Positions 3 to 62,800 of a stretch of DNA of 64,000 nt are shown piece by piece; the first letter of the stretch is position 1; every line of letters begins with the position of its first letter. The notes beneath the pieces are model-generated. The model saw only the letters and a program-made list of their open reading frames with translations, made no database searches and was not told where the DNA came from. The DNA lies in NCBI RefSeq assembly GCF_024323335.1, contig NC_066581.1:184218830-184282829 (forward strand), read 5' to 3'. Both the position numbers and the translations under genes were made by a program. Source of the DNA: Lathyrus oleraceus (lineage: Eukaryota > Streptophyta > Magnoliopsida > Fabales > Fabaceae).

Positions 3-1427
3 AAGTTGTATCATGTCCCTCGGGATGAGAATCAGATGGCTGATGCTCTGGCTACTTTATCCTCTATGATAAAGGTTCATTGGTGGAATCAGGTGCCACA
101 TGTTGCTGTGAATCGACTCGAGAGGCCTGCGTATGTGTTTGCAGCCGAGTCTGTTAATGCTATTGATGATAAGCCGTGGTATTATGACATCAAGAACTTC
201 CTCAAGACTCAAGAGTATCCTGAGGGTGCGTCGAAGAATGATAAGAAGACCCTGAGAAGGCTTGCTGGAAGCTTTTATCTGAATCAGGATGATGTGCTAT
301 ACAAGCGGAATTTTGACATGGTCTTGCTCAGATGCGTGGATAGACACGAAGCAGACCTGTTAATGCAAGAAGTGCACGAGGGTTCGTTTGGTACCCACGC
401 TGGTGGTCATGCAATGTCGAAGAAATTGCTGAGAGCCGGTTATTATTGGATGACTATGGAATCCGATTGCTTCAAATACGCTCGGAAATGCCATAAGTGT
501 CAAATCTATGCTGATAAGGTGCATGTACCACCAAGCCCGTTGAATGTCATGAACTCGCCTTGGCCGTTCGCCATGTGGGGCATTGATATGATTGGGAGGA
601 TTGAACCAACTGCTTCTAATGGACATCGCTTCATCCTGGTTGCGATTGATTACTTCACCAAATGGGTGGAAGCAGCTTCCTATGCCAATGTCACCAAACA
701 AGTGGTTGCCCGGTTCATCAAGAAAGAAATCATCTGTCGTTATGGAGTTCCCGAGAGAATCATCATTGACAATGGTTCGAATCTCAACAACAAAATGATG
801 AAAGACTTATGCAGAGATTTCAAGATTGAACATCACAATTCTTCTCCTTACAGACCAAAGATGAATGGTGCTGTAGAGGCAGCAAACAAGAACATCAAGA
901 AGATTGTGCAGAAGATGGTCGTTACGTACAAAGATTGGCACGAGATGTTGCCTTTCGCTTTGCATGGATACCGTACCTCTGTACGTACGTCGACCGGGGC
1001 AACCCCCTACTCCCTTGTGTATGGTATGGAAGCAGTCCTACCAGTTGAGGTGGAGATCCCTTCTCTGAGGGTATTATTGGATGTCAAGCTGGACGAAGCC
1101 GAGTGGATTCGTACAAGGTTTAATGAGTTAAGCCTTATCGAAGAGAGACGGTTAGCAGCTGTTTGCCATGGGCAGTTGTATCAGAGAAGGATGAAGCGAG
1201 CCTTTGATCAGAAAGTGCGTCCTCGGACATTTCAAACTGGCGATCTAGTTTTGAAGAGGATCCTTCCTCCCGGTACAGATAACAGGGGCAAGTGGACTCC
1301 TAATTACGAAGGTCCATATGTTGTGAAGAAGGTCTTCTCTGGTGGAGCCTTGATGCTTACAACTATGGACGGTGAAGATTTTCCTTCCCCTGTCAACTCA
1401 GATGTAGTCAAAAAATACTTCGCGTAA
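3..1427 (+). CDS. Pol C-terminus: end of RNase H and complete integrase (truncated by window edge)
   Basis: The frame is open from the first bases of the window, so the true start lies upstream. The first residues (HVPRDENQMADAL) are the end of the archaeal-type RNase H typical of Tat elements. The integrase follows: an HHCC zinc finger ending in CHKC near residue 160, then a DDE core with Asp194 (GIDMIG), Asp255 (IIDNGS) and Glu291 (NGAVEAANKN), numbered from base 6. The 35-residue gap between the second Asp and the Glu is the classical DD35E spacing. A GPY motif (YEGPYVV) follows in the C-terminal part; no chromodomain is seen, as expected for Tat. The enzyme inserts element cDNA into the chromosome. 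The frame ends with YFA and a TAA at 1425-1427. Element B carries the same gene in broken form, so this copy is the better preserved one. Confidence 0.93.
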   Translation, partial: KLYHVPRDENQMADALATLSSMIKVHWWNQVPHVAVNRLERPAYVFAAESVNAIDDKPWYYDIKNFLKTQEYPEGASKNDKKTLRRLAGSFYLNQDDVLYKRNFDMVLLRCVDRHEADLLMQEVHEGSFGTHAGGHAMSKKLLRAGYYWMTMESDCFKYARKCHKCQIYADKVHVPPSPLNVMNSPWPFAMWGIDMIGRIEPTASNGHRFILVAIDYFTKWVEAASYANVTKQVVARFIKKEIICRYGVPERIIIDNGSNLNNKMMKDLCRDFKIEHHNSSPYRPKMNGAVEAANKNIKKIVQKMVVTYKDWHEMLPFALHGYRTSVRTSTGATPYSLVYGMEAVLPVEVEIPSLRVLLDVKLDEAEWIRTRFNELSLIEERRLAAVCHGQLYQRRMKRAFDQKVRPRTFQTGDLVLKRILPPGTDNRGKWTPNYEGPYVVKKVFSGGALMLTTMDGEDFPSPVNSDVVKKYFA

Positions 1428-1436
1428 GTTGACCCG

Positions 1437-1628
1437 CTGGACAAAAAGAACAAAATAGTCCAGGCAAAAATGGGCATCCCGGCGAACCAAAAAACAGAAA
1501 GAAAAGGTTCGGGCAAAAGTTAGGGATAAAAACGAAAAAATTGTACACCCGGTAAGTCGAAAACCCGCAAGGGCGGCTTAGGCAAAAATGGGTATCCCGG
1601 TGGATTGAAAACCCGAAAGGGCGATCCA
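1437..1628 (+). repeat. Ladder of four hairpins with GGCAAAA linkers after integrase
   Basis: Ten bases after the integrase stop codon four hairpins follow in a row. Stems: CTGGAC (1437-1442) with GTCCAG (1458-1463); CGAACC (1483-1488) with GGTTCG (1506-1511); TAAGTCG (1553-1559) with CGGCTTA (1574-1580); TGGATTG (1601-1607) with CGATCCA (1622-1628). The last two share a design: outer stem, AAAA on the left side, then CCC and GGG closing a GCAA or GAAA tetraloop of the GNRA type. Each hairpin is followed by GGCAAAA or a close variant. The stems differ in sequence but stay complementary, counting G-U pairs. Element B has the same arrangement at 45227-45374. Function unknown; possibly a structured 3' UTR signal. 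Confidence 0.8.
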
Positions 1629-2105
1629 GCCAAAAGAGGGATTAAAGCGAAGACTACAGTCTGAGTCATCTGTATTTCGTCATGCTTCGTCAGCTGCCAT
1701 CTCGAAAGATGTGATCGGTCCAGTCAGTCTTCTCAGAAAGCAAGGAATTGGGAGGAAACTGATGATCTATGAGTTATAACAGAGTTGGGAAACAGTGAAT
1801 GCCGTGTTCACATTGCCATTAGGATAGTTTATTTTCCTTTTGTGCGCAATTACCTCTTTCTAGGAATTGCTTCTCAATGTATTTGCCTCTTCAGGCACAC
1901 TTTCAATCAATAAAAGTCGTTATTCAGATAATTTGCTCTCTTGTTTTTACTTTTACTGTTTTGTTTGCAAAAACGTCCGAATTTTTGATAAACATTGCAT
2001 ACAAAAACATGAAGGCTACACAATGACATGCAGGAAGATTAAAACATTTGAAAATCATTTTGAATGTTGAGGACACTTGAGCGCATCTTGTCCATATACT
2101 CCCTG
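1629..2105 (+). other. Unique 3' UTR segment with AATAAA at 1909
   Basis: No coding potential is visible. The stretch contains a short stem-loop (CATCT with AGATG, loop CGAA, 1692-1705) and an AATAAA at 1909-1914 in an AT-rich setting with upstream TGTATTTG, which resembles a plant polyadenylation region. An AATAAA at a similar distance after integrase exists in element B (45621-45626). Confidence 0.5.
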
Positions 2106-2109
2106 GGGC

Positions 2110-3030
2110 ATCTGTTGTTCCGATTTGCAGGACGTCACCTGTGAATATTTTCCCCAGTAAGGTCGTCACCTGTGAGCATTCCCCAGCAGTGCTTTTCCCA
2201 GACAGAATCATTCTCCTAGCTATGGATTTGTTTAAGCCTTCCCCAGCGAAGCAGTTTTTTCTCCAGCAGAGTTCATCCCACCAGTGGATTGGACTAGTTT
2301 TCATAGCAGACGGATGCCTACATCCCCAGCTGCGTTGTTTCTGCTTGTATGGTACGGGTCGTCCCCGGCAGAGTAACAGATATTCCCCGAAGCAGAGTTC
2401 ATCATATCTGAGGATTGTATGAGCCTTATCCCCAGAGAGTTGCCTGGTTTATCGTCCCCCAGCGGAATGGTTATTTCCTCAGCAGAGCAGTTATTTCCCC
2501 AAGTGGAGTTTTTGTGGATTGATTGGGCTATCTCCAGCAGTTTACCGTTGTTTTCCCTAGCAGAGTTGTTTTCTTACTCCCCAGTGAGTTGCCTTGTCTT
2601 CCCCTAGTGGAGTTGTATTGTTGGCCATCCCCAGCAGTTGATTTGTCTCCCCCAGTGGAAGTATCTTGAAGATTCCTCAGCACAGTCGTCCTGTGTACTC
2701 TCCCCGCAGAGTTCTCATCATATTGCATTGCATATAGTAATCATTGCATCCTCAAAATTGCGTAGCATTTCCATCCCATATGGAGCATTACGCCATAGAA
2801 AAATTCAAACATATGCATTCATGTGTTCGAAACCACATCAGACCGTGTCCCCGGCAGAGGCGGATCATCCTTATTCAACATCAGCACAGCAAATCAGCTA
2901 CAGTTGCTTCGACAGTATTCAGAATTGATTATCCCCACAGAGGTTTATTTCCTCACCCGATGGTGACAGAGGTTTATTTCCTCACCCGATGGTGACAGAA
3001 AGTTTGTTTCTCCCCCCAGTGAGACCCCCA
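2110..3030 (+). repeat. Degenerate repeat array with a CCCCAGCAGAGTT core (tRNA-Arg 3' end-like)
   Basis: A loosely spaced array in which variants of CCCCAGCAGAGTT recur every 25 to 50 bases, for example near 2267, 2362, 2392, 2570, 2626 and 2703. Other copies read CCCCAGTGGAGTT or CCCTAGCAGAGTT. The core equals the complement of the PBS used by these elements (PBS TGGCGACTCTGCTGGGGA; complement TCCCCAGCAGAGTCGCCA), that is, the 3' end of the primer tRNA. Similar arrays lie in B (45800-46140) and, inverted, in C (62900-63800). A 30-base sequence with TTTATTTCCTCACCC is also duplicated in tandem at 2940-2998. Confidence 0.7.
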
Positions 3031-3119
3031 GCAAGTGATCAGTCCTGCCTTAACATATCTCAGTTTTGATCTTGTGATACCAGTAAGTGTCATGTCAGCA
3101 CCCGCGTGTTTTTCTCATT

Positions 3120-4445
3120 TTTTGGTGTCGGTAAACGCCATTCTTTCGGTGTCGGTAAACATCGAGTTCCACCCAGTCATCGGTAAATGTCTGGTCATTT
3201 TTTTGGTGTCGGTAAACACCATTGCTTCGGTGTCGGTAAACATCGAGTCTTTCTTTCAGTCATCGGTAAATGTCTAATAATCCCCAGCTAGAAATCCCCA
3301 GTAGAGTCATCTGTAAATGTCCTACCCGGTTTTCAGTTGCAAATATTTGTTTGTCTTTCCCCAATAAATTTCTCATCCCAGTCATCGGTAAATGTCTGGT
3401 CATTCCTTTTGATATCGGTAAACATCATCTTGCGATGTCGGTAAACATCGTGTCTCACCATAAATGTCCCATCCCAGTCATCGGTAAATGTTTGGTCATT
3501 CTTTTTGATGTCGGTAAACATCGTCTTTCGATGTCGGTAAACATCGTGTCTCACCCCAGTCATCGGTAAATGTCTGGTCATTCTCTTTGATGTCGGTAAA
3601 CATCATCTTTCGATGTCGGTAAACATCGTGTCTCATCCCAGTCATCGGTAAATGTCTGGTCTTTCTTTGTTCTCTTGTTAATAAAATCAGAATCCCCAGA
3701 AGTCGTCGGTAAACGTCTTGTCTGGTATCACCACAAAGATTTTGCTACTCCCCAAGCGGAGATGCCATCGGTAAATGGCCCAGTTTTCTTCGATATCGGT
3801 AAATATCGAATTCCCAGTTGCAGCAGCCATCGGTAAATGGCCTTGACATCGGTAAATGTCAAGTTTCTTTGAAGCCACCATCGGTAAATGGTCTTGCTTC
3901 CTTCCTACATCAATTTGTTTCCCAGCAACCATCGGTAAATGGTCTTGCTGAAGTTGATATCGGTAAATATCAAAGTTTTAACCATCGGTAAATGGTTTTG
4001 TTTTTTCAGAAGTTGTTTCCCAGCAGCCATCGGTAAATGGTCTGGCTGAAGTTGATATCGGTAAATATCAAAGTTTTAACCATCGGTAAATGGTTCTGTT
4101 TTTCTCAAGTTGTGTTCCCAGCAGCCATCGGTAAATGGTCTTGCTGAAGTTGATATCGGTAAATATCAAGTTTTAACCATCGGTAAATGGTTTGTTCTAC
4201 ATCGAACCTGTTTCCCAGCAGCCATCGGTAAATGGTCTGGCTGAAGTTGATATCGGTAAATATCAAGTTTTAACCATCGGTAAATGGTTTTGTTTTTCAG
4301 AATTTTATTTTCCCCAGCCGCCATCGGTAAATGGTCGTGTTGAAGTTGATATCGGTAAATATCAAGTTTCCAGTTTTCAACCATCGGTAAATGGTTTTGC
4401 TTTTCTGAAGCTGTCATGCAGTTTGTCATCGGTAAATGACGTGGT
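3120..4445 (+). repeat. Array of short hairpins with invariant CGGTAA loop and variable stems
   Basis: Several dozen copies of TCGGTAAA occur here. Nearly every one lies between two arms that are reverse complements: GGTGT/ACACC, GATGT/ACATC, GATAT/ATATC, GCCAT/ATGGC, ACCAT/ATGGT, GACAT/ATGTC and GTCAT/ATGAC. Longer stems occur too, such as TTCGATAT with ATATCGAA near 3788 and CTTGACAT with ATGTCAAG near 3842. The CGGTAA between the arms is constant, so this is a family of hairpins with a fixed loop and compensated stem changes. The arms group into higher-order units of roughly 100 bases from 3950 to 4400. Tandem repeats at this place in Ogre elements are known and can seed satellites. No protein is expected from the frames that run through the array. 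Confidence 0.92.
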
Positions 4446-4558
4446 TCTTGTATTATATCCAGTCGGTGCAAATTTCTACGGTTCTTTTGTATTCAATCCC
4501 TGCTTACCCTGAAAGTCTGACAGCCATCGCTATCATCCGTTCGGGTTCTCAGCTGATT
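4446..4558 (+). other. Conserved 3' UTR segment before the PPT
   Basis: Unique sequence that matches, in inverted form, the corresponding part of element C (60181-60280), including AAATTTCTACGG, CTGTCAG and TCAGCTGATTGAATAG. The match identifies A and C as members of one family. No gene is seen. Confidence 0.7.
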
Positions 4559-4571
4559 GAATAGGGGCAGC
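4559..4571 (+). promoter_or_regulatory. Polypurine tract of element A
   Basis: The purine-rich GAATAGGGGCAGC lies directly upstream of the LTR start TGTAGCACC. In this family the tract primes plus-strand DNA synthesis. The same tract is found inverted in C (60168-60180), and a shorter relative (TATGGGCAGC) precedes B's 3' LTR at 48021-48030. Confidence 0.8.
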
Positions 4572-7500
4572 TGTAGCACCTCAAATTTGCACTTATCATT
4601 GTACATACCATTTCATATTAGGTCATAGCATATCATGATACATTGCATAGCATTTGCATTGTCCCCAGTTGCCTCAAGAGCAAGCAAGCAAGAATTAGGT
4701 CAAACTGATCAGGAGATCAGTCAGCCAATCAAGCAAGGGTATTTCTCAAGGAATCAAAGCCCTAGGGTTTGTCCAACAAGTTCACATGACTAGAGGGTTC
4801 ATTTGAAGTGTTCAATGTCAAGGGTTGAAGGCTCAAAGGCCATCAGTTCTTGCACAGCCAGGCAGAAACCCTAGAAAGTCAACAATCAGTCAAAGCAATG
4901 GATGGTGGCCATTCTTATGGAATTTGGGCACCATGATCAATAATCAAGAGTTCATATGTCTTGGGACATCATTTGAAGCCAAGGTCTCAAGGAATTAGGG
5001 TTTGGAATTCATCAGTCAGTGCATAGACGGTCCAAAACCCTAGAAAGTCAAAGTTGGTCAACTGTGGTTGATTCTTTGGTTCTGATGGATGGAAATGGTT
5101 TGAAGGAGCTTATTCATGTCCTAATAGACCTTATATGTCATGGCAATCAACATCATGGAAGAATTTGAAGCAAATCAGAAAATTTCCCAAAATAGAAACT
5201 GGACCTGTAATTTCAACTGCCAAAAATGGAAACTTCTTGATCCTCAACTTGCATCATGATACAAGCTTCAAATGAATTTTTGCCCAACATAAAAGTTGAA
5301 GGTTTTGTTCTCCCATTTTCAAAAAGTCCAAGAACTCTCAAATCCCATGTATGGTTGTCAAGATATGATCAAATCATTTTCACAAAATCTTGAACTTCAA
5401 ATGAGCATATCTCTCAAACCATAAGGCCAAATTTGGTGGGGTTTTTTCCTACAAACCACATTTTTCATCCTCTTTCCAAAAATATAGATTTCACCCTCCA
5501 AAACCTTGCCAATCAAAATGGCATTTTTTGACCTATTCCATTAAAAATCAAAGTTTGACCAAACTTTGACTTTTTGATTCATTGACTTTTTACACAATTG
5601 GCCAATTGGGATTCACTTTATATGGTATTTGAAACTTGCTTCAAGCATAATTCCATGTTCATTCTACCATTACACTATTATTTTGGACCAAAAATGTAAA
5701 ATTGGCAAATATGCAAATAGCTTCACAAAGTGAAGGCAAAGTGCAGCAATCCTTCAGCAGACCAAAAACAGCATTAGCAAATGTCATTTGCAGCCTTGCC
5801 AAAGCCCATTCGACCAGCACATACACCTCCATTTTTCACTTATGCAAGATTTAGTAAAATTGCAATTCCATTCATTTAAGCTAACCAAGGTTAGCACTTC
5901 CTAAACCAACTTTAAACAGATGATATAAGCCTCATTTCTGATCATTTTCACAACCCTAGAGACTAAGAGCAGCCAGAGAAAAACCAGAAAACTCTCATTC
6001 CCATTTGCCACGATTTGGATTTTTGCACAAAACTCTCAAAACACTGCAAGCTTCCTTCATCACTCCTTCATCTGAACAACATTTGATGCACCTTTGAGCC
6101 TCCATCCCCCTACTGTAAAGCCTGTCCTTGCTCTGCATCTTCAAGCTACCAACAATGGTGAAAGGAGATTTGAAGAGCTCCATGCACTTTTGAGCCAAAC
6201 CACTTCAAGACTCCATCATTGTAGAGCATAAAGAGGAGCTGTTTCAAGGAAGATCGTCCAAATAAGCACTGTTCCATTGATTTCCTTCAAACAAGTGAGT
6301 TTTTCGATTGCTTTGTTTTGACAAATAATGCTATACTTTAAGTAGGCCTTGCTTCACTGATTCTAAGGAACTATAGTTTGTTTGAAATGATGAAATATTG
6401 CATGAGATATTTGAAATTGAAGTTTTGTGTTCAATGACCATTTTGCTCGATGCATGCTGTCCAACGTGTTTCAATGATTTTTACTTATGGATTTGTGATG
6501 TACAATGTCTACTGAGTGTATTGCCATGCTTAATTTGGACTTCTGGTTGATTTGATTTTGTTCATGTTGGAATAATGATGATGAATACCCTGTTCGTTCA
6601 TGTTTTTATCTGCCCAGAAATTCCATTTGATGTGTTTGTTTGGTTGTTGACTACTGTTGCTTAGTGATGATGTTTAATGGCCAAGCTTAATTATTGAGGT
6701 TGTTGGTCATTGATTCGTGTTTGGATGTTGATACACGATGATGTTACTGCTATGCTATTGAAACCTTAATATTTTCCAGAAAACAGGGACTGTTCGCATA
6801 TGCATGTGTGTTGTTGTTACGTTTGTTGCATAATATCATTATCTTCATTGCCATGCTGTATGAGTATTTTCTTGCTGGAAATTTCGGGATGAATAGTATG
6901 AAAACCGTGTGTGCTTGCTGCGTTTGGTTCTGGGTGTATTGGCAAACTGGTTTTCTTTTTTCTGTTTACTGTAGCATTGCCATTTAATTGCAGAATTTTA
7001 ATATACACTGCTGTGCTTGTTGTTTGCTTTTAAAAAAAAAGGGGAATATTCTAATAGGTTGGGATTTATATGCTGTTGCTGTTTTTCCGCTGTGCATATT
7101 GGTTTTCAAAAGGTTTTCATTGGTCATTAGTGCTTTGTCTACTGTGGGCTGTGCGTTTCTTCTTAGTGGCCTTGGGCCCCACCGACTGGGACTTAAAATC
7201 CCATCAAAAGGCACTTTCGGTGCTACATATGAAGCATAGCATTTAATTTTGGTTTTCATTTCAAACATATTAGGCATTTGCTTTCTTGTAGCCATGCTTT
7301 TTCAGATTTGTAGAGCAGCATTTCCTGTGCATGCTAGTTGTTGAGGTTTACGTTATTTGATTGGGGTAGTACCGCTGTGCATGTCGGTTTAGAGGATTAT
7401 TTTATTCGTTTATTGTTTTGTCCACTATTACCATTGGCTGCTTTTCTTAATCTGCTCTCAATTTCCACAGTGGCCAGGTGACTAGCTACAATAGCATGTG

Positions 7501-13426: not shown

Positions 13427-14060
<634 letters not shown>

Positions 14061-18599: not shown

Positions 18600-20367
<1,768 letters not shown>

Positions 20368-20829: not shown

Positions 20830-22500
<1,671 letters not shown>

Positions 22501-36487: not shown

Positions 36488-37951
36488 TCCTGATTTGAAA
36501 GAGCTAAGGAAGTTAGCATCCTTTGTATTAGATCCTTTAGACTTCAAGCAATGTTATGGGAAGCTTTTATGGTATCTACTAATATGGTTGAAGGACTCTT
36601 GAGTGTGTTGGTTCAGTTCTATGATCCTCTCTACCGTTGTTTCACTTTTCCCGATTATCAGCTTATGCCTACGTTAGAAGAGTATGCCCATCTCTTGGGA
36701 ATACCCGTTTTTGACAAAGTGCCGTTTAGTGGATTGGAAGAGATTCATAGATCTCATATCATGGATGAAGCTCTTTACTTGAAGAAGTCTGAGATTGAGG
36801 CTCATTGGGTGAAGAAAGGAGGAGTGTTTGGGTTGACTTCTGAGTTCCTCATTGGAAAAGCTATTGTCTTTGCTCAAGCCGGTAGTGTGGACGCTTTTGA
36901 AGCAATCTTTGTTTTGCTCATCTATGGTTTGGCTATGTTCCCTAACATTGAAGATTTTGTTGATGTCAATACCATTAGAATCTTCTTGATTGGGAATCAT
37001 GTTCCAACGTTGTTGGGTGATGTGTATTTCTCTGTGCATCTAAGGAATTCTAAAGGTGGTGGAACTATTGTATGTTGTATTCCTCTTCTATACAAGTGGT
37101 TTATTTCGCACTTGCCTCAGACGCCTGCTTTTCTGGAGAACAAGCAATGTTTAAGGTGGTCTCAGAGACTTATTTCTCTCACTAATGATGATATTGTTTG
37201 GTATGATTCTGCATTGAGTAGTGTGGATATTATTGATAGTTGTGGTGAATTCTCTAATGTACCTCTCATTGCTACACAAGGAGGAATCAACTATAACCCT
37301 GCTTTGGCTCGTCATCAACTTGGGTTCCCCTTGAGAGATAAACCTAATAACACTCAGTTAGAAGGTCTTTTCTATCAAGAGGGTAAAGATCCCCAACATT
37401 TGAAGCAGAAGATGATTCATGCTTGGCATAATGTGCATAGGAAAGGAAGATTCGAGCTTGGTCCGTGCAATTGTGTAGTTTTGTAAGCTTACACAATTTG
37501 GGTGAAAAAGATAGCTTTGGAGTTGAAGATGTTGTATGCTTGTGAAAGACCTATGTCTTTGGTTGTGGCTGAGCCATCAACTCCCCCTAACCAAGATGTA
37601 GAGGAGTTGGAACACACACTTGCTAAGATGAAACAAGAAAGAGACATGTGGGAAGAGTGGTTCCATGCTTTAAGCAGAAAGCATGAGGAGTTGCAGATTG
37701 AGTCAAAGGACAAAGACGCACTTATTGAACTCCTTGAAGACCGAGCAGTGAAGAGATAGAGAGAGCCAGAGGGTTCATCTTCTTCTAGCATGCCTCAGCC
37801 TTCCGGTGCTTGGAAGAAGATTGTCGATCAGCTTGTCCTTGAGAAAGCTCAGATGAAGACATCTTTTGAGTCCGAGATTCGATGCATCCGAAGGAAGTAC
37901 GTGCCCACAGCCAGATCATCTGATACCGTTGCTAGGGGATCCTTGGGATGA
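36488..37951 (+). pseudogene. ORF1 of B: extra Ogre protein with a plant-mobile-domain-like region (broken)
   Basis: Ogre elements carry an additional ORF before gag, of unknown function. Here its N-terminus is recognisable from about 36488 (DLKELRKLASFVLDP) in one frame. The main part is at 36551-37486 in another frame, so a frameshift lies near 36590. The main part shows VQFYDPLYRCFTFPDYQLMP and LEEYAHLLGIPV, a pattern resembling the plant mobile domain and proteins often labelled DUF7745 (from memory). A TAA at 37484-37486 and a TAG at 37757-37759 interrupt the same frame. The continuation (37502 onward) is rich in Glu and Lys with a likely coiled coil. The frame finally ends at TGA 37949-37951. 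It stands separate from gag, with a 300-base spacer. Confidence 0.78.
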
Positions 37952-38248
37952 TTAGTTTCCTTTTCTCTTGTATTTGTATTTTGGTCTCTGAAATTGTACT
38001 CAGTGTAATCCTTCCAAATTTTATGAATAAAAAGAGATTTTTATGGTGAATCAAATTATTATTATTATTATTTAATATTTGCAAATAGAACTTCATACGT
38101 TCCTTGAAATTAAAACAATAAAAAACATTGCATTTCATGCATCATTTGCATAACATGTTTTCTTCTTCTAGATGTCTTATCGGTTATTCTTCTATGCTTC
38201 AGCCAAGCTGCTCACCGATACAACACTCGCGCCAATCAACCAAAGATT
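37952..38248 (+). other. Spacer between ORF1 and gag with AATAAA
   Basis: The spacer holds TTGTATTTGTATTTTGG followed by AATAAA (38026-38031), an arrangement like a plant 3' end (far-upstream TTGTA-type and near-upstream AATAAA signals). No gene is seen. Confidence 0.55.
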
Positions 38249-40530
38249 ATGGAGCATTTGGAATAAGAGAACATAGAGATGAAGGATGGGATTGTCCGAC
38301 TGACTTCCATGATGGATTTTGTTCTTGCTGCGCAGAGCCAGCCTTCACCAACACTTGCAACTCCTCCCTAGAGGACTGTCATCTCCGAGGTTGCTACTTC
38401 AACCATTCCTGTTACTGCTACTCAATCTAGTCCAACTATGCCTGTTGTATTCCCATGGGGGATTCTACCAAATTTCATGCCTGAGGGATATACACCCAAA
38501 TTTGCTTCTATGCCGGCATCTAGCCCAGTCATGTCTGTGCCGCCTCCGGTTGTTCATACCTTACCTCATGTTGAAGACACCACCTACCATTCTGATCCAT
38601 TTGAAGACCCAGATGTTTATGAGAAGATGGATGAAATGAAGGTTCAATTCCTAGAGCTATGAAAGGAGTTGAAGACATTGAGGGGAAAAGACTTGTTTGG
38701 GAAGAGTGCTGCTGAACTCTGCTTGGTACCAAATGTGAAGATCCCGATGAAGTTCAAAGTCCTTGACTTTTAAAAGTATAAGGGAAACACTTGTCCACTT
38801 AGCCATCTTGTTATGTACGCCAGAAATATGTCAACTCAAACTAATAATGATCAGTTATTGATCCACTACTTTCAAGACAGTTTGACTGGTGCTGCTCTAA
38901 GATGGTATATGAGGCTAGACAGTGCAAGTGTCCATACGTTCAATGATTTGGGCGAAGCTTTTGTGAAGCAGTACAAGTATAATGTGGATATGGCGCCTGA
39001 TAGAGACCAGTTGAGGTATATGTCTCAGAAGGATAAGGAGACATTCAAAGAGTATGCTCAAAGATGGAGGGAACTTGTTGCTCAGATTAATCCCTCATTG
39101 GAAGAGAAGGAGATGACAGAGATTTTCCTAAAGACCCTGAGTTCGTTTTACTACAAATGTATGATTTCCAGTGCCCCCCAGTGACTTTACTGAAATGGTG
39201 AACATGAGGATGAGGCTAGAAGAGGGAGTCCGTGAAGAACGTCTGTCCAAGGAAGAAATGTCGTCTAGTAAGAAGTATGGTGGTGGTTTCTCCAAAAGGA
39301 AGGAAGGAGAAACCAATTCAGTATCTGTGGGGAGGCAGAGGAGGCCTCATGTCAGAAGAAATCCTCAACCGCGTCAGCATCAATATCAAGTTTCATATGT
39401 AATTCGAGTGTTTTCCAATAATTCCAACAATCAATCTATTCCAATTCAGCAACAACAACATCAACAACAACCGCAACAAAGAACCAACTACAACAACAAC
39501 AACAACAACAATAACAATAATCAACAACAAACCTTCGAGAGGAAGAAGGTCTCTTTTGACCCTATTCCTATGACATATGCTGAACTGTATCCATCTTTGG
39601 TTCTCAAGAACCTACTCCAACCAAGAAATCCACCTCAAATTCCCGAGCCACTTCCATGGTGGTATAAACCTGAACTCTATTATGCCTTTCACCAGGGAGC
39701 CCCTGGTCATGATATAGAGAGCTGCTATCCGTTGAAGTATGAGGTACAGAAGCTTGTAAAGAGTGGTATGGTGTCCTTTGAGGACCGAGCACCGAATGTG
39801 AAAGCCAATCCGTTGCCCGCTCATGGTAATGCTTCAGTCAACATGGTGGATGGTTGTCCTGGAGAGTATAAGGTTTATGATATTCTCCATATCATACAAT
39901 CTTTGGTTGCAATCCATAGAGATATTTGTTCGGTCAGTGATTGTGAACATGACCATGATGGTTATGTGATATGCAACATGGACCCTCAAGGATGTATCAT
40001 TGTCAAGAGGGATATTCAGAGGTTGATGGATGAAAGGCTTATCCAAATTTGTCAGTCAAGAGAGATAAATGATGTCAATGTAATTGTGCCAGTGTTTAAG
40101 ACCCCTGAGCGGGTAGTAATTCAATTTGATAGTAATAGCAGCAACATCAATAGATCGGTATCGCTGTTGGTTATACGGTTAGCGGGTCCCATCCCGTATG
40201 CATCCGATAAGGTTGTGCCATGTCAGTATAATGCCACAATGGTGGAGAATGGTCAATAGGTTCCGTTGCTCGTGGAAAATTCTATGGTGAATATAGCTGA
40301 CATTGCAAAGGTGACCCGTAGTGGTCATGTCTTCGGTCCGGTCTTTCCGAGAGAAGTGAAGGATGTTTCAGCCAGCAAGAAGATAAATGTGCCTGTGGTG
40401 AATCCGGTTAGTGCTCCAGTGTGTCAGTCTGGTGAATCCAGCAAACTGAAGCCTAATGATAATGATGATGATGAGGTATTGAGATTAATCAAGAAAAGTG
40501 AGTTTAATATGGTGGAGCAGCTGCTCCAGA
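38249..40530 (+). pseudogene. gag of B (broken)
   Basis: The start is taken at ATG 38249, in the frame that holds the rest. Stops interrupt it at 38264 (TAA), 38369 (TAG), 38660 (TGA) and 38771 (TAA). The region 38813-39184 shows the Retrotrans_gag core (YFQDSLTGAALRWYMRLD, YKYNVDMAPDRDQL). A run of six C at 39174-39179 shifts the frame by one; the protein continues from 39182 to a TAG at 40257-40259, then in the same frame up to 40530. A Gln/Asn-rich tract (39435-39530) is encoded by CAA/AAC repeats. A half zinc finger (FHQGAPGHDIESC, about 39688) follows. Gag would build the particle. Confidence 0.88.
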
Positions 40531-41532
40531 CCCCCGTCTAAGATTTCAGTGTTGTCTCTGTTAATGAATTCCGAAGCACATAGAGAAGCATTGCAGAAAG
40601 TACTAAAGCAAGCCTACATGGAACATGATGTTATTGTGGATCAGTTTGACCACATTGTTGCTAACATCACTGCTTGCAATAATCTGAGTTTTTATGATGA
40701 GGAGCTTCTTGAGGAAGGAAGAAATCACAATTTAGCTCTACATATTTCAATGAACTGCAAGGAGGATGCGCTTTCCAATGTGTTGGTAGATACTGGTTAT
40801 TCTCTGAATGTACTTCCGAAATCAAGTCTTTCTAGACTCTCCTATCAAGTCGCTCCCATGAGATATATTGGCATGATTGTCAAAGCATTCGACGGTTCTC
40901 GCAAAACCGTCATTGGTGAAATAGACCTGCCAGTTAAGTTAGGTCTGAGTGATTTCCAAATTACTTTCCAGGTAATGGATATCCACCCGGCCTATAGCTG
41001 TTTATTGGGGAGGCCATGGATTCACGAAGCAGGAGCTGTGACGTCTACTCTGCACCAGAAGCTCAAATTCGTAAAGAACGACAAGCTTGTCGTTGTTGGT
41101 GGGGAGAAGGCACTGTTGGTGAGCCATTTGTAATCTTTCTCATATGTTAAAGCTGAGAAGGAGGTTGGAACTCCGTTCCAAGCCTTGCCTATTACAGAAG
41201 TGAAGAAAGCTAGGGCACCCATGTCTTCTTTCAAGGATGCTCAGAAGGCTATTGAGGTTGGCTGCACCAATCTATGGGGTCGCATGGTAGAGGTTGCTGA
41301 GAATAAGAACATGGATGGATTGGGATTTCAACAAGGGTTGTCCAATGTCAAAGCTGAAGAAGTGCAACCTAGTTTCCGCAGTGGAGGGTTCATCCATGGT
41401 AATGAACAACACTCAACTGCTGTGATTGAAGATGATGAAGACGAAGACTGCGCCAACTTTGTGGCGCATGGCGAGACTTGCAATAATTGGGTTGCTGTTG
41501 ATATTCCTGTTATCGTTCACCACTCTAAGTAA
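40498..41532 (+). pseudogene. Aspartic protease region of B (broken)
   Basis: A run of five C (40531-40535) shifts the frame relative to gag, and the protease reads in the new frame. The active-site triad is D-T-G (residues 98-100 from 40498, bases 40789-40797) in VLVDTGYSLNVLPK; retroviral-type proteases usually have Ser or Thr next, here Tyr. A LLGRPWIH motif follows near 41005. TAA at 41131-41133 stops it, after which the frame continues from 41134 to the stop at 41530-41532. The enzyme would cleave the Gag-Pol polyprotein. The stop coincides with the intron start (41529). Confidence 0.85.
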
Positions 41533-41780
41533 TTTGTCTTCATGTTTTAAGAAAAATCCTTCTCCTATGCCTAAGGGAGAAGTGAACATTGTTAGGCATT
41601 TTCAATTATCATTAATAAAATCCAATTCTATTCATCCACATCTATGATGTGTTATTCTTACTTTTTGCTTTTCTGAAAAATGGTAATCACAAAAAAACAT
41701 AAATAAATAATAATTGTCCATCTGTAAATATTTGGTCATAATTCACTTCTCTAAAATCAAAATATCAAATCATTATGCAG
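41529..41780 (+). other. Putative pol intron of B (between protease and RT)
   Basis: Ogre elements have an intron in pol between protease and RT. Here the candidate runs from GT at 41529 (CTAA/GTAATT) to AG at 41780 (TTATGCAG), 252 bases, AT-rich. The RT region starts directly after it with GTTGGTTCCCAAACC. It contains AATAAA at 41614-41619. The boundaries come from the GT/AG rule and from where coding similarity starts and ends; they are not proven. Confidence 0.75.
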
Positions 41781-43400
41781 GTTGGTTCCCAAACCCATTG
41801 AATACAATGATCCTACTCCCTCTCCAAACTTTGAGTTTCCCGTGTCCGAGGCCGAAGAAGAGACCGATGAAGAAGTATCTGATGAATTGTCTCGTCTGCT
41901 TGAGCACGAGGAAAAAGTCAACTTGGGTTCCGAGGATGATGTGAAGGAAGTCAGGATTGGGTCTTAGCTATGTCCAGAGGCTAAGAAGGGGTTGATTGAT
42001 CTTCTTCGAGAGTATTCAGATGTTTTTTCTTGGTCCTATCAAGACATGCCTGGGTTGGATTATGAGATTGTTGAACATAAATTGCCGTTGAAGCCAGAAT
42101 GCCCTCTAGTCAAGCAGAAGCTGAGAAGAACTCATCCTGATATGGCAGTTAAGATCAAAGAAGAAGTGCATAAGCAGATCGATGCAGGTTTTCTTGTTAC
42201 CTCCGAGTATCCGCAGTGGGTGGCCAATATTGTGCATGTTCCAAAGAAAGATGGAAAAGTCCGCATGTGTGTTGATTATAGAGATTTGAACAAAGCTAGT
42301 CCGAAAGATGATTTTCCTCTGCCACACATTGACATGTTGGTAGACAATACAACTAAATTCAAAGTCTTTTCGTTTATGGACGGATTTTCCGGCTACAATC
42401 AAATCAAAATGGCACCTGAAGATATGGAGAAGACCATATTCATTACGCCCTGGGGAACATTCTATTACAGAGTGATGCCTTTCGGTTTAAAGAATGCTGG
42501 TGCAACTTACCAGAGAGCCATGACCACTCTTTTTCATGATATGATGCATAAAGAAATTGAAGTATATGTTGATGATATGATTTCCAAATCAAGTGATGAA
42601 GGAGGACATGTTGAGCATTTGTTGAAGTTATTCTAGCGTTTGAGGAAGCACAAACTCCGCTTGAATCCCAATAAGTGTACATTTGGTGTTCGTTCTGGTA
42701 AGTTGTTGGGCTTTATTGTCAGTGAGAAGGGTATTGAAGTTGATCCTGCCAAGGTCAAATCAATACAAGAAATGCTTGCACCCAAAACTGAAAAGCAAGT
42801 CAGAGGTTTTCTCGGCTGCTTGAATTATATCTCAAGATTCATATCGCATATGACTGCCACGTGTGCGCCTATATTCAAGCTTCTTCGGAAAGATCAGTCT
42901 TTTGATTGGACCGAAGATTTCCAGAAAGCTTTTGATAGTATCAAAGAGTATCTGCTAGAGCCTCTGCTTCTGTCTCTGCCTGTTGAAGGAAGACCGTTGA
43001 TCATGTATCTGACTATGCTTAATGAAAGTATGGGTTGTGTTCTGGGTCAGCAAGAAGAATCTGAAAAGAAACAATATGCTATTTACTACCTGAGTAAGAA
43101 ATTCACCGATTGTGAAGCTCGATATTCTATGCTTGAAAAGACTTGTTGTACATTGGCTTGGGCTGCTCAGCGTCTGCGCCAGTATATGTTAAATCATACT
43201 ACTTGGTTGATATCCAAAATGGATCCAATCAAGTATATTTTTGAGAAGCCTGCTTTAACCGGGAGGATTACTCATTGGTAGATGGTTTTTTCAGAGTATG
43301 ATATTGAATATCGATCTCAAAAAGTAATCAAAGGTAGTGTCTTGGCTGACCATTTATCTCACCAACCAATTGAAGATTACCAGTCAGTGCAGTATGATTT
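41781..43400 (+). pseudogene. Reverse transcriptase and RNase H of B (broken)
   Basis: A single frame holds throughout, broken by stops at 41965 (TAG), 42634 (TAG) and 43279 (TAG). RT motifs in order: RMCVDYRDLNKASPKDDFPLPHID, the first catalytic Asp in SFMDGFSGYNQI (GAC 42379-42381), FITPWGTFYYRVMPFGLKNAGATYQR, and YVDD at 42565-42576. The connecting RNase H shows YYLSKKFTDCEARYSMLEKTC near 43080. The 42634 and 43279 stops stand where CAG is expected in the family, so C to T changes at CHG sites would explain both. The product would be copied into DNA with the tRNA-Arg primer. Confidence 0.92.
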
Positions 43401-43449
43401 CCCTGATGAAGAGATCTTGTACTTGAAAATGAAAGATTGTCACGAACCA

Positions 43450-43880
43450 TTGCTTGAAGAAGGGCCAAAACCTGGTTCCCGTTGGGGCATGGTATTTGAT
43501 GAAGCTGTTAATCTGTATGGTAATGGTATTGGGGCAGTGATTATTACTCCTCAAGGCACTCATTTTCCATTTACAGCTAGATTGGCTTTCAACTGTACAA
43601 ACAACATGGTTGAGTATGAAGCTTGAATTATGGGGCTTGAAGAGGCCATTGATCTCAGAATCAAATATCTTGATGTCTGTGGAGATTCAGCTTTGGTTGT
43701 GAATCAAATCAAAGGTGAATGGGAGATGAATCAACCCGGTTTGATACCATATAGAGACTATGCGAGGAGTATTTCAACTTTCTTTACAAAGGTTGAGTTT
43801 CATCATGTCCCTCGAGATGAAAACCGGATGGCAGACGCCCTTACAACGTTGGCTTCAATTATTGTAGTGAACTTTTGGAA
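43450..43880 (+). pseudogene. Archaeal-type second RNase H of B (broken)
   Basis: Tat elements carry a second RNase H after the ordinary one. Four acidic residues expected for catalysis are visible: D in GMVFDEA (about 43498), E in NNMVEYE (about 43614), D in VCGDSALVVNQ (about 43685), D in NRMADALT (about 43840). A TGA at 43624-43626 breaks the frame directly after the second one. Element A shows the end of the same domain at the window start. Confidence 0.82.
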
Positions 43881-45208
43881 TGAGGTTCCCAATTTGACGG
43901 CGATACGTCTTGATAGGCCAGCTCATGTGTTTACTATAGAAGAGGTCAAAGATGAGAAGTCATGGTATTTTAATATCAAGAGTTTCCTCCAAAGGCAGAT
44001 TTACTCGCCCGGGGCATCTTTGAAAGATAAAAAGACTTTAAGGAGATTAGTTGACAACTTCTACCTAAATGGTGATGTGCTTTACAAGAGAAACTTCAAT
44101 ATCATCTTGCTCAGATGCGTGGATAGACACGAAGCAGACATGTTGATGACTGAAGTCCATGAAGGTTCCTTTGGTACTCATTCCAATGGACATGCTATAG
44201 CTAAGAAAATGTTGAGAGCATGTTACTATTGGCTGACAATGGAATCTGACTGTTGCAAGTTTGTGAAGAAATGCCACAAGTATCAAATTTATGAAGATAA
44301 AATTCATGTTCCTCCGGACTGTTGAACGTCATTTCCTCTCCATGGCCTTTCTCCATGTGGGGAATTGATATGATTGGCATGATTGAGCCCAAAGCTTCAA
44401 ACGAACATCGTTTCATTCGGGTGGCTATATACTACTTCACAAAGTGGGTTGAAGCGGCATCATATGCAAATGTAACCAAGCAAGTTGTTATGAGGTTTAT
44501 CAAGAACCAAATTATATGTCGTTATGGTATCCCAAGTAAAATCATTACTGATAATGGATCTAACTTGAATAATAATATGGTGGAAGCTCTTTGCAAAGAC
44601 TTCAAGATTGCACACCATAATTCTTCTCCCTACAAACCTAAGATGAATGGGGTTGTTGAAGCTGCAAACAAGAATATCAAGAAGATCATTCAGAAGATGG
44701 TTGTAACATACAAAGATTGGCATGAGATGCTCCCATTTTCTTTGCATGGGTATCGTACATCCGTCCGCACTTCAACAGGGGCAACCCCTTTCTCTCTTGT
44801 TCATATATGGAAGTTGTGCTCCCAGTAGAGGTTGAGATCCCATCACTGCGTGTCTTGATGGAAGCCAAGTTGGCTGAGGCTGAATGGTGTCAAACCAGAT
44901 ATAACCAGCTGTATTTGACTAAAGAGAAAAGATCAACTGCCATGTGTTATGGTCAGCTATATCAGCAGAGAATGAAGAAGGCATTTGATAAGAAGGTCAG
45001 GCCTCGAGTATTCATAGAAGGTGACCTCGTTATCAAGAAGATTCTACCTTTCAAACCTGATGCCAGGGGAAAATGGACTCCTAATTATGAAGGCTCATAT
45101 GTTGTTAAGAGAGCATTTTCAGACGGTGCTTTGATTCTTACAACTATGGATGATGAAGAGTTCGCGCGTCCTATGAATGCTGATGCAATCAAGAAATACT
45201 TCGCCTAA
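43881..45208 (+). pseudogene. Integrase of B (broken)
   Basis: The zinc finger is damaged: its last cysteine is replaced by Tyr (CHKY at 44272-44283; element A has CHKC). A one-base change near 44315-44323 shifts the frame, and the DDE core follows at 44322-44828: Asp in GIDMIG, Asp in IITDNGS, Glu in NGVVEAANK. A second frame change occurs near 44808, and the C-terminal part (44807-45208) keeps the GKWTPNYEGSY stretch, where GPY is replaced by GSY. It ends YFA with TAA at 45206-45208, as in A. Confidence 0.9.
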
Positions 45209-45226
45209 AAAGAAAAGAACAACTTG

Positions 45227-46419: not shown

Positions 46420-47520
46420 TGTAGAGTGTCAGCCCCTTAGGCAGAAAGACTTTAACCTTTCTCACTTCCCCACTAAGTTATTTCCTCGTGGATGATTATC
46501 ATTTCAATTTCCTCCCCAGTAAATTATCTGGATGGAATTGCTCCCCTGAGATATATCCTCATTGGGCCGAGTCTTTATTGAACTGTCTCTTTCTAGCTCT
46601 TACCTAGATAGATACCTTTGGTCCCTTGAGAGACTATTACCCAGTAACTGGTAATATTCCTCTCAATTGTTGAGTATTTTATTATTATCTAATACCTGGT
46701 AAAAGTAACCTACTTCTCTTGTTATCCCTAGTGGATTCATTTTCTCGTGTCCCTAGGCAGTCTATCCTTGATATGTTCATCCTAACCGATGACAGATATT
46801 CTCCTTTTGCGATTTTCTACCCATTAAAAAGGTAGTTGTAATCCCTATTTTCATTCCCCAGAGAGTTAATCCTTGATATGTTCATCTTAACTGATGACAT
46901 ATTTTCTTCTTTCTTTGGTATTCTGCCCAGTAACCGGTAGATATACACTCTATTTCTTCCCTCATAGTTAATCCTTGATATGTTCATCCTAACTGATGAC
47001 GGGTTCTCTCTTTTAGTCTTCTGCCCAATAATTGGTAGTTGTAAATCCTATTTTCCCTTGCAGAGTCTATCCTTGATATGTTCATCCTAACCGGTGACGG
47101 ATATTCTCTTTGGTATTCTATCCAGTAGCCGATAGATATAATTCCTACTTTTTCAGGAAGTTTATCCTTGATATGTTTACCCTAACCGGTAACAGATATT
47201 CTTCATAGTTCCCCAGGTGGTCTATCCTTGATATGTTCATCCTAACCGATGACGAATATTCTTCCCTCTGAGTCTATCCTTGATATGTTCACTTTAACCA
47301 GTGACGGATATTCTCTCTCTTTGGTCTTCTTCCCAGTAACCAGTGGTTGTAAATCATATTTGGTATTTTCCTCAGCAGGTTGTTCTTACCCAGTAACTGG
47401 TAACGAACATACCTCATTTTCCTCAATGAGTCATCCTTAATATGTTTACCCTAACCGGTAACAAATGCCTCTCTGTCAGGGTATGTTATCTTCCTACCCA
47501 GTAACTGGTGGTGGATAATA
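46420..47520 (+). repeat. Hairpin array with YTAACY loops in the 3' UTR of B
   Basis: Eight units of about 60 to 110 bases contain CCTTGATATGTT (or CCTTAATATGTT) followed by a hairpin. Stems are TCATC/GATGA (46777, 46882, 46984, 47236), TCATC/GGTGA (47082), TCACT/AGTGA (47289) and TTACC/GGTAA (47177, 47446), with loop CTAACC, TTAACC, TTAACT or CTAACT. Between them lie copies of CCCAGTAACTGGTA and relatives (CCAGT/ACTGG, CCAAT/ATTGG around one A). The stems vary and pairing is kept. Confidence 0.8.
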
Positions 47521-60289: not shown

Positions 60290-61600
60290 CTGTTGTTTTT
60301 TCCTTTTCTATCTTCTCTTCAAAAGCACAACCACGTCCAGACATCGACACACGATGACTGGGATCAGAAATCTCAACTAGATGCCAGCGGACAACTAGGA
60401 AAAACTCAACGTTTACCAAGACCAACGGAGAGGTAAATCAACTCTACTGGGGATAACCAGGAAAGGATACAACCATACGTCAGCGGACGTAATGGGAAAA
60501 ACTCAACGTTTACCGAAACCAACGGAGAGGTAACCAGACATCATAGGATGAAAGGCGGGGATAGTGATACAACCATGCGTCAGCGGACGAAATGGGAAAA
60601 ACTCAACGTTTACCGAAACCAACGGAGAGGTAACCAATCATTAATGAATGATTGGAAGGATAGATACAACCATACGTCAGCGGACGTAATGGGGAAAAAC
60701 TCAACGTTTACCAAGACCAACGGAGAGGTAACCAGACATCATAGGATGAATGGGAAGACTCGACCAGACGTCATAGGACGAAAGGGAGAAGCTCGACGTT
60801 TATCGACACCAACGGAGAAGGAGGAAACTCAACCAGACGTCATAGGACGAAAGGGAGACTCAACGTTTATCGACACCAACGGAGAAGGAGAAAACTCAGC
60901 CAGACGTCGTAGGACGAAAGGGAGACTCAACGTTTATCGACACCAACGGAGAAGGAGAAAACTCAACCAGACGTCATAGGACGAAAGGGAGACTCAACGT
61001 TTATCGACACCAACGGAGAAGGAGAAAACTCAACCAGACGTCATAGGACGAAAGGGAGACCACAACCGGACACCAAATAGGACGTCTACTGGGGATTCTG
61101 GCTGGGAAATCAACCAGACATTAATGAATGACTGGGAATAGGGTATACAATCAGACGTCATCGGACGAATGAGAAAAACACAACGTTTATCGAAACCAAC
61201 GGGGAGGTAAATCCACTTGGGGAAGGGTACAACTAGACGTCATAGGACGAATAGGAAAAACTCGACGTTTATCGACACCAACGGAGAGGAGGAAACTCTG
61301 AGGGGAATCATATGGTATTACCAAATGATCTGTAGGGAATAAGCAACTAGACATCATCAGACGACTAGGAAAAACTCGACGTTTATCGACACCAACGGAG
61401 AGGAGGTTCAACTGGGGAAGACTCTGTGGGGAAAGATATCAACTATACGCTACGCATAGGAAAAACTCGACGTTTATCGACACCAACGGAGAGGAGGACT
61501 CTTCTAGGGAGAGCGAACACAACCAAATCATCAATGGATGATGGGGAAAAACTCGACGTTTATTGACACCAACGGAGAGGAGGAAAATCTCTGGGGATCA
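60290..61600 (-). repeat. Hairpin array in the 3' UTR of C
   Basis: Two elements alternate every 50 to 80 bases: a GTTTACCGAAACCAACGG or GTTTATCGACACCAACGG block, and a hairpin with four-base centre. Stems on the plus strand: TACGTC/GACGTA around AGCG (60476-60491), CATC/GATG around ATAG (60539), CCAATCATT/AATGATTGG around AATG (60634-60655), CGTC/GACG around ATAG (several) or ATCG (61156), and ATCATC/GATGAT around AATG (61527). This is the same family as the CGGTAA array of A (inverted). No protein is expected from frames crossing it. Confidence 0.85.
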
Positions 61601-61639
61601 AGGTCATGACAGAGAGTAGACAGGAAGGAACACCAAGGA

Positions 61640-62130
61640 TGCCGGGTTGTAGGCAGAAAACAGGTGACCGACCAAAACGTGAATTGGTTTGTGTTCAAAA
61701 ACACTCAACATCCTGAAGAGGGCTAGAAAAGCAGTCTTGTTAGAGGATGGACATTCAATTCCACAAGGAATACGAATCTTACTCGACTGGGGAGGACGAC
61801 TTCGACCCAAGAGCGCATGAGACAGATTACCTATAGCCGTCAAAACGTAGATAATAGACTCGCATGGAAGATTATCCATAACCGGATTGGAGGTTGTTAA
61901 ATGGATAAGCGACCGACATCATCCTGAAGAGAGCGAAAGCAAACTTGTTAAGGGATGGACATCCGATTCCACGAGGAATACGAATCTTACTCTGCTGGAG
62001 GAAACAATCAAAAGACTGACCAGAGAGTGCATGAGACATATTATCTATAGCCGTCAAAACGTAGATAATAGACTCGCATGGAAGATTATCCATAACCGGG
62101 TTGCAGGTTGTTAGATGGATAAGCGACCGA
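61640..62130 (-). repeat. 214-bp tandem duplication in the 3' UTR of C
   Basis: Two copies of a 214-base unit (for example GTAGATAATAGACTCGCATG at 61847 and 62061). TGCC/GGCA hairpin near 61641. No coding role. Confidence 0.75.
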
Positions 62131-62334
62131 AAAGAAAGGCATCGGGGTACCAGGAATAGGTATGCAAAGATGACCAATCAAAAGAGGATGAAGTTGCTTA
62201 CTCGGAGCAAGTGCCCAAAAGGAAGGGGAAGACCCACTGGGGACAATACTGCTTGATCAAGGCAAGTATCCAGAGGGGACAAGACTATCAATACCGCAAA
62301 CTGGGTACTGATAACTGCAAAGAGGGGATTACAT

Positions 62335-62800
62335 CTACCGGTTTGTAGGCAGAAAACCACGGAAAAGGTAACCGTCCTCAATCAGGATGAGCACAAAGGT
62401 TCAACTCCACCAAGGGGAGAACGTGGGATTTTACAACTACCAGCTAGTAGGTAGAAAACCACAAAGATAGGACTTACAACTACCGGTTTGCAGGTAGAGG
62501 CCAACAAACAGAATGAACCACAAAGGTTACCTCTGCTAGGGGGTGAAAGTGGGATTTTACAACTACCGGCTTGTAGGTAGAAAACCACGACGATAGGACT
62601 TACAGCTACCGGTTTGTAGGTAGAAGCCATCCGACAGAATGAACCACAAAGGTTACCTCTGCTAGGGGATGAAAGTGGGATTTTATAACTACCGGTTGGG
62701 TAGAAAACCACAAAGATAGGACTTACAACTACCGGTTTGTAGGTAGAAGCCCACAAATTCCGCCGAGGATAAGATGAATGAGTACCGGTTAGTGAGCCAC
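62335..62800 (-). repeat. 126-bp tandem units with CTACC/GGTAG hairpins
   Basis: Units spaced 126 bases (GAATGAACCACAAAGG at 62511 and 62637). They contain ACTACCGGTTTGTAGGTAG-type hairpins (CTACC/GGTAG); one variant near 61641 has TGCC/GGCA. Related CCAGT/ACTGG sequences exist in B. Confidence 0.75.

Follow-up and report, generated by a model that had tools for sequence, protein, structure and literature searches.

The 3′ UTR of the Ogre/Tat-type LTR retrotransposons analysed here is, on a modest balance of probability, best explained as holding an array of short stem-loops kept by selection on pairing in the sense RNA. In element A of the region described here, loops and arms are conserved while the spacers between them drift, and arms covary in several hairpin families of three elements (A, B and C), each represented by one copy. 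Selection for pairing is considered likely, and we infer that the constraint acts on RNA.

The window, i.e. the whole stretch of 64 kb of plant DNA that was analysed, contains several LTR retrotransposons, of which A (plus strand), B (minus strand) and C (plus strand) were studied. The main parts of A and the coding part of C are as follows.

3..1427, plus strand: 3′ end of the pol gene of element A (integrase), an ORF open from the window start to its stop codon, with the Pfam domains rve and Integrase_H2C2
1428..4572, plus strand: 3′ UTR of element A, as read from the sequence
4573 onwards, plus strand: 3′ LTR of element A, taken to begin at 4573 (TGTAGCACC after AATAGGGGCAG)
36551..45208, plus strand: coding part assigned to element C, with DUF7745 ORF, RT, RNase H, RVT_3 and integrase in several frames (Pfam)

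Homologues of the A integrase, among the 120 of 2278 matches listed, include proteins named for Trifolium (clovers), pea (Lathyrus oleraceus), vetch, chickpea and cotton (Gossypium). A protein filed under Salmonella enterica (P0022; 68% identical to the A integrase over 99%) is probably plant contamination. The integrases of A and C align by tblastn in three pieces with 83, 66 and 65% identity. In element C, Pfam places RT_RNaseH at 42640–43278 and RVT_3 with Integrase_H2C2 at 43630–44322. The DUF7745 ORF (36551–37483) lies upstream of the RT; its order and strand suggest that it is part of element C, and it may correspond to ORF1, the extra ORF upstream of gag in Ogre. A second RNase H (RVT_3) between RNase H and integrase is a trait of the Tat lineage and of Ogre. 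It is found in C; the visible frame of A begins downstream of that domain. The 3′ UTR of C extends from about 45209 to 48030 (plus strand), that of B from 64000 down to about 60167 (minus strand). As the pol gene of B is outside the window, its type is deduced from the likeness of its UTR and LTR to those of A, which share 86% identity over 199 aligned columns across the UTR end and LTR start. Element-specific tandem repeats are located between the pol stop and the 3′ LTR in A and C, as judged by position, and before the LTR in B. The arrays of the three elements are all different. Rfam gave no match in the window at the gathering score. Elsewhere in the window, four perfect AT dinucleotide runs of 103–128 bp occur within about 8 kb (13946–14053, 19178–19305, 20258–20360 and 21895–21999).

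The sequence-only reading had proposed dozens of hairpins with a fixed loop in the 3′ UTR of A. Such hairpins are present, as 38 CGGTAA units between 3129 and 4430 on the plus strand, large parts of which are organized in two kinds of higher-order repeat.

3120..4445, plus strand: hairpin array of A, with 38 CGGTAA loops and one CTGTAA loop (3311); stems mostly of 5–8 bp, some longer with a bulge
3113..3656, plus strand: higher-order repeats of about 82 bp with three hairpins each, GRTRT/ACRYC, CGRTGT/ACATCG and CCAG-T-CAT/ATG-T-CTGG
3915..4411, plus strand: higher-order repeats of 98 bp with three hairpins each, CAGC-RCCAT/ATGGT-CT-GCTG, TTGATAT/ATATCAA and AACCAT/ATGGTT

All arms named beforehand were located: GGTGT/ACACC (3210), GCCAT/ATGGC (3769 and 3831), GACAT/ATGTC (3850), GTCAT/ATGAC (4430), also GATGT/ACATC, GATAT/ATATC and ACCAT/ATGGT, and the long pair TTCGATAT/ATATCGAA at 3797. 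With the CTGTAA unit, which was added by eye, the array comprises 39 units. Their five innermost positions (p1–p5) make 195 pairs, of which 178 are Watson–Crick, eight G·T, one A·C and eight T·T. The T·T mismatches are central in eight units of the GTCRT/AYGTY kind, and the A·C is found in a single unit (GATAT/ACATC, 3416). Pairing declines beyond p6–p8. In all 38 CGGTAA units at least four of the five flanking positions are paired, G·U being allowed, and in 30 all five are paired. The corresponding values in a viral control were 24 and 3 of 490 units (both strands), taken from 107 unrelated viral loci chosen only for three spaced copies of TCGGTAAA. A blind scan of the A array for Watson–Crick hairpins of at least 6 bp (loop 3–10) found 13, compared with 1.15 expected from 100 first-order Markov randomizations (sd 1.1, maximum 5). 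The inverted loop TTACCG does not occur within 3120–4445. Loop–loop kissing was rejected as an explanation, as the sole TTACCG of the A UTR, at 2547, is at about chance level.

Among the viral loci (L019–L125), many contain at least three copies of TCGGTAAA, which often extend over 52 bp and lack complementary arms. One example is an iteron- or operator-like set in which TACCGAAT precedes and AACTAACC follows a loop. Eighteen viral stretches with ACCATCGGTAAATGGT were taken for chance. Two scans of genome contigs and three of viral contigs revealed no related locus: the exact pattern was without a match in one scan of each kind, and the peptide-pattern stretches from the other scans (31 in genome contigs, 1 and 81 in viral contigs) were left unconfirmed by tblastn. 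Plasmids and phages yielded 10 plasmid records with integrases or transposases below 60% identity and nothing else.

Alignment of the 39 units of A, which required no gaps, gave 29 distinct rows. In this alignment 92.0% of the cells are paired, compared with a shuffled mean of 69.8%, and the covariation score is 0.689 compared with 0.298; neither value was reached by any of 500 shuffles. When the partner was slid by one to three columns, pairing dropped to 24–46%. Five of the six stem positions have changed on both sides, and p4 occurs as all four Watson–Crick pairs (A-U, C-G, G-C and U-A). Unit alignment with RNAalifold, which had been suggested as a check, recovered the same six pairs unguided. 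Simple counts are weaker measures: 443 of 500 shuffles had as many doubly changed pairs, and the number of further pair types in A was equalled in 347. The latter count never exceeds the shuffles in any of the four hairpin sets analysed in A, B and C (347, 480, 193 and 395 of 500 as high). For A, we read the weakness of the count measures as a consequence of arms so varied that shuffles also meet other types.

As much of the A array consists of higher-order repeats, its units are not independent. Counted over p1–p6, they comprise 22 distinct arm pairs. Exact block copies are removed from the comparison if whole right arms are exchanged among distinct arm pairs only. The observed pairing (120 of 132) was never attained in 20 000 such trials, which had a mean of 92.5 and a maximum of 112. 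The objection that the arms are a few ancestral units copied in blocks thus holds in part: copying is plain, but it leaves the 22 distinct arm pairs unexplained.

The higher-order repeats also allow loops, arms and spacers to be compared between copies. Five copies of each repeat were aligned by sequence alone, excluding the parts outside both repeats and the stretch 3275–3395, which is degenerate and lies between copies of the 82-bp repeat. Differences were found at none of 360 loop bases, 42 of 710 arm bases and 182 of 697 spacer bases; these comparisons are pairwise and non-independent, so that their P values overstate, and the ranking of loop, arms and spacer is plain. One hairpin of the 82-bp repeat reads GGTGT/ACGCC, GGTGT/ACACC, GATAT/ACATC, GATGT/ACATC and GATGT/ACATC in its five copies, its neighbour CGGTGT/ACATCG in two copies and CGATGT/ACATCG in three. 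At p4, the first hairpin has thus gone from G-C to A-U and the neighbour from G·U to A-U.

Translated frames through the array match five proteins (P0121–P0125), which indicates that the array is present in other copies of A; P0123 matches the end of the UTR only. In P0124 and P0125, the T·T kind retains its unpaired p4 (V-I-G-K-C). Loop changes were seen in P0121 (T-I-G-R-W) and P0124 (V-S-I-N-I). Because of codon degeneracy, no covariation count is possible from these proteins. One of the loop changes in P0121 and P0124 is consistent with CGATAA, the loop of B at the like place.

Hairpin families of other sequence were found in elements B and C.

60353..61579, minus strand: B array of YRTC/GRYR stems with the 4-nt loops CTAT, CTAC, CGCT, CGAT, CATT and TGAT
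60353..61579, minus strand: outer parts of the same B array, mostly with a T·T mismatch next and then outer arms such as CCAG/CTGG, CTAG/CTAG or TCA/TGA
60353..61579, minus strand: CTC-CGTT/AACG-GAG, also in the B array (RNAalifold)
61444..61460, minus strand: replaced 7-bp hairpin CTATGCG-TAG-CGTATAG at a site of the YRTC/GRYR family, the usual hairpin having been lost by an indel
61637..62757, minus strand: B hairpins CTACC/GGTAG around TACAAACC-type loops, and two long stems TTATCCAT/ATGGATAA
46762..47478, plus strand: C hairpins TCATC/GATGA, TTACC/GGTAA and TCACT/AGTGA with YTAACY loops, eight units
46635..47513, plus strand: C hairpins with CAGTAACY-type loops (arms such as CTGCC, CTATC and TTACC), aligned with the B family

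The YRTC/GRYR family of B was counted in 17 units, made up of 14 of 16 rows and three units added by eye (60377–60398, 60634–60655 and 61114–61135); the replaced hairpin at 61460 is outside this count. Each of the 13 distinct rows has its inner four pairs intact, and the outer arms covary. Over nine pairs, 78.6% of the cells are paired and seven pairs are doubly changed; one aligned position occurs as G-C, G·U and A-U. A T·T stands at the like place in 9 of the 13 distinct rows by alignment, and 10 of 13 are unpaired there by the pairing count. The B units CGTTGGTGT/ACGTYGAG, if placed in the register of A, have a p2 mismatch in 5 of 13 and were kept out of all counts. RNAalifold pairs them otherwise, as CTC-CGTT/AACG-GAG (12 of 13 units used).

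In the YTAACY family of C, all 40 cells are paired. The arms are TCATC/GATGA in four units, TTACC/GGTAA in two, and TCATC/GGTGA and TCACT/AGTGA in one each, so that one position occurs as U-A, U·G and C-G. RNAalifold found the inner four pairs unguided and placed the outer ones beyond a bulge. The CAGTAACY family of C aligns with the CTACC/GGTAG family of B, the two elements being 68% identical over 157 columns in this region (blastn). The joint set of 15 units was drawn from 21 B rows, of which 8 were used (the remainder being off-register or with different stems), and from 8 C rows, of which 7 were used (the one at 46517 has no hairpin); it retains one broken unit (47334). Its arms include CTACC/GGTAG, CTGCC/GGTAG, CTGCC/GGCAT (four of five paired) and CTATC/GATAG; 96% of the cells are paired, three of the five pairs are doubly changed, and A-U, G·U and G-C occur at one position.

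Arm swaps among distinct arm pairs gave P values of 0.08, 0.014 and 0.033 for these three small sets, each of which is modest alone. The blind hairpin scan is weak outside A, with 4 hairpins in the proximal array of B compared with 1.4 expected (maximum 4), 3 in the C array compared with 1.0 (maximum 3) and none in the middle part of B compared with 1.1. The sequence-only reading had allowed that covariation might be no higher than in shuffled units. This outcome was not obtained in any of the four hairpin sets, in all of which pairing and covariation score exceeded those of 500 out of 500 shuffles. The selection for pairing that it had proposed is thus supported, as it is by the G·U intermediates, by the conservation of loops and arms over spacers and by the like behaviour of the B and C families. 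The CGGTAA loop is particular to A, and several other loops are used in B and C: the loop is specific to A, the held pairing general to A, B and C. A role of the loop as a decoy for U1 or the 5′ splice site (GGTAAAT) was dropped, the motif being absent from most B and C loops.

Hairpins of another kind are located close to the pol stop.

1434..1636, plus strand: proximal hairpins of A, CTGGAC/GTCCAG, CGAACC/GGTTCG, AAGTCG/CGGCTT and GGATTG/CGATCC, found by eye

Singly they fold with −8.1, −7.1, −13.7 and −14.5 kcal/mol, and AAGTCG/CGGCTT and GGATTG/CGATCC enclose CCC-GNRA-GGG. A like set follows the pol stop of C (45206–45400, plus strand). In both sets the arms are diverse and mostly paired, the flanks are alike (CCCGG before, GGCAAAA after), and the loops are long or contain a nested CCC-GNRA-GGG, which in several units is CCC-GAAA-GGG or CCC-GCAA-GGG. 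The predicted fold of the third of the three C units (45325–45385) is without the arms read by eye. As a whole, the A UTR from 1428 to 3119 is not notably structured (z −1.1). A C-rich motif resembling CCCCAGCAGAGT recurs at irregular spacing upstream of the arrays, at 2100–3010 (plus strand) and 62800–63800 (minus strand).

The argument that the structure is formed in RNA had been based on G·U pairs occurring only in the sense orientation. The comparison of wobble frequency between the strands bears this out as a lean and not as a rule: A·C, the antisense counterpart, does occur, and the ratio in favour of the sense strand is 10 or 11 to 2. Counted as distinct core-helix states, there are 11 G·T and 2 A·C (two-sided P 0.022), or 10 and 2 (P 0.039) when two adjacent contexts belonging to one kind are counted once, with a small bias towards G·T since the helices of the four sets were named after reading the sense strand. 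Inclusion of p6 of A gives 13 G·T and 5 A·C (P 0.096); of the A·C cells at p6, four out of six belong to a kind that has a CU bulge at this place when folded (as judged from two of the four repeats concerned). Two more sense wobbles proposed by RNAalifold, which folds the sense strand, were for that reason not counted. Under span-limited folding, two runs on the A array gave sense z values of −5.7 and −6.2, and the antisense strand scored −9.4. The B arrays have −5.6 and −5.4 (sense) and −5.2 and −6.7 (antisense), respectively. The C array, with −2.4 (sense) and −2.3 (antisense), is no better than a control at 53 kb (−2.3 and −2.5); the C regions and two controls, together with the second run on the A array, were folded under a slightly modified scheme. 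In the sense strand, the z values of the ten other stretches stay within +1.6 to −1.6, except for that of the 53-kb control. As the antisense strand is more stable in A and the two are about equal in B and C, folding energy does not pick the sense strand. At least part of the antisense excess in A is due to the terminal loop bases C and A, whose complements pair there as U·G. In the predicted antisense fold of the CGGTAA units (3129–4430), the U·G from the fixed loop ends closes a UACC tetraloop.

These energies bear on two of the alternatives to selection on the sense RNA. The functional strand might be the antisense, either as a transcript or as minus-strand cDNA, with the U·G and UACC tetraloop formed by the loop ends of A. 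The z value of −9.4 is in line with this, as is the summed energy of the 39 A units taken as 22-mers (−212 kcal/mol compared with −186 for sense, some units being more stable in the sense), and passages of PMC11963269 describe ORFs on the antisense strand for the corresponding region of Retand elements, a related lineage. We nevertheless regard an antisense function as very unlikely, given the excess of G·T over A·C in the sense reading and the fact that the counted B and C hairpin loops are mostly without the U·G feature. Template switching of DNA or cDNA in near-palindromes, during replication or reverse transcription, would copy arm onto arm without any selection; it would account both for an energy without preference for the sense strand and for the many perfect stems in the A array. 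However, repair of palindromes would remove T·T, yet the mismatch persists in eight units of A and, in B, in 9 of 13 distinct rows. Conservation is highest in the loops, which gain no protection from repair; the array contains no inverted loop, and the non-Watson–Crick states lean to G·T. The T·T mismatch kept in A and B, the conserved loops and the missing inverted loop disfavour palindrome repair, which we consider unlikely.

The hairpins could also matter only as recombination hot spots at which reverse transcriptase pauses and switches strands, with a hypervariable array as the result. An array of higher-order repeats with indels fits such a process, and a strand-transfer model is set out in passages of PMC7004042; the unvaried loop and the greater conservation of arms than of spacers are both left unexplained, which makes pausing alone quite improbable. 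A function in the nuclear export or retention of unspliced RNA, similar to a CTE, would suit elements whose gag-pol carries an intron, as is the case for the Ogre type. The location of the array between pol and the 3′ LTR agrees with it, as do parts of two reports, on GmOgre with an intron in gag-pol (PMC3305785) and on the Cer1 retrotransposon, which needs the CERV protein for export of its genomic RNA (PMC10309623). If a host factor were involved, a motif shared by A, B and C would be expected, but the loops differ, and we hold this export function to be distinctly unlikely.

Hypervariable tandem repeats in the 3′ UTR of the Tat lineage (Ogre, Retand) and satellites derived from them are described in passages of PMC7004042 and PMC11963269, which cite Macas 2009. 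According to passages of PMC7004042, such repeats are known as seeds of satellite DNA and would have arisen when co-packaged copies recombined illegitimately or underwent abnormal strand transfer. The arrays described here share the location between pol and the 3′ LTR, the element specificity, the unit length of tens to about 100 bp and the variability. They differ in that the repeats form stem-loops whose arms covary and, in A, whose loop does not vary. Neither ‘hairpin’ nor ‘secondary structure’ is used in the main text of PMC7004042, PMC3305785 or PMC11963269; ‘palindrom’ is absent from the first two and occurs twice in the third. The region is known as a hypervariable tandem-repeat 3′ UTR; hairpins with covarying arms appear to be new, as no report of hairpins or covariation in these 3′ UTRs was found in the literature searched, most subscription papers being outside it.

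On the reading that we prefer, stem-loops held by selection on pairing in sense RNA, the hairpins of the full-length RNA would act as a multivalent binding platform in which each is one weak site. The loop would provide the recognized letters (CGGUAA in A, others in B and C), with the stem merely as its holder, so that the arms would be free to drift while pairing holds and copy number would be free to vary. Since loops differ between elements, a partner encoded by the element is likelier than one from the host, and Gag/nucleocapsid or the ORF1 product would be the likeliest candidates. Binding of such a partner could let the element choose its own RNA for packaging or export, and loop turnover among elements would follow partner specificity. 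Packaging or assembly is put forward tentatively as the purpose of the array. A more doubtful extension is an evolving RNA code, in which the loop would be the recognition word of the element, copied tens of times, altered from one element to another and read by an element protein to tell its own RNA from that of the many sister elements.

Among known systems, packaging signals of small RNA viruses such as STNV-1 are described as many dispersed, degenerate copies with common loop letters and free stem sequence. The A array would work in a like way and differs in being tandem, in the 3′ UTR of a retroelement, with a strict loop (38 of 39). The common loop on variable stems is found in A only (22 distinct arm pairs). 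Retroviral CTE and RRE export elements are compound structures at one or two sites. They share with the present case the presence of structured RNA towards the 3′ end of a retroelement that has an intron, but here there are dozens of simple hairpins with element-specific loops. Against a packaging role, PMC6475782 reports no discernible function in vivo for the multi-copy packaging hairpins proposed for STNV-1. In yeast Ty3, a Ty3/gypsy relative, both UTRs and POL are needed for RNA localization and packaging, according to passages of PMC11381356; these give a 3′ UTR of 214 nt and describe no hairpin array in it.

The covariation and unvaried loop in A, together with the separate families in B and C, point to a repeat structure under constraint, and the hairpins may help to reveal how plant LTR elements select their RNA or export it. 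If the proposed RNA code is real, the hypervariable 3′ UTR repeats and the plant satellites derived from them would be relics of a selected RNA structure and not by-products of reverse transcription.
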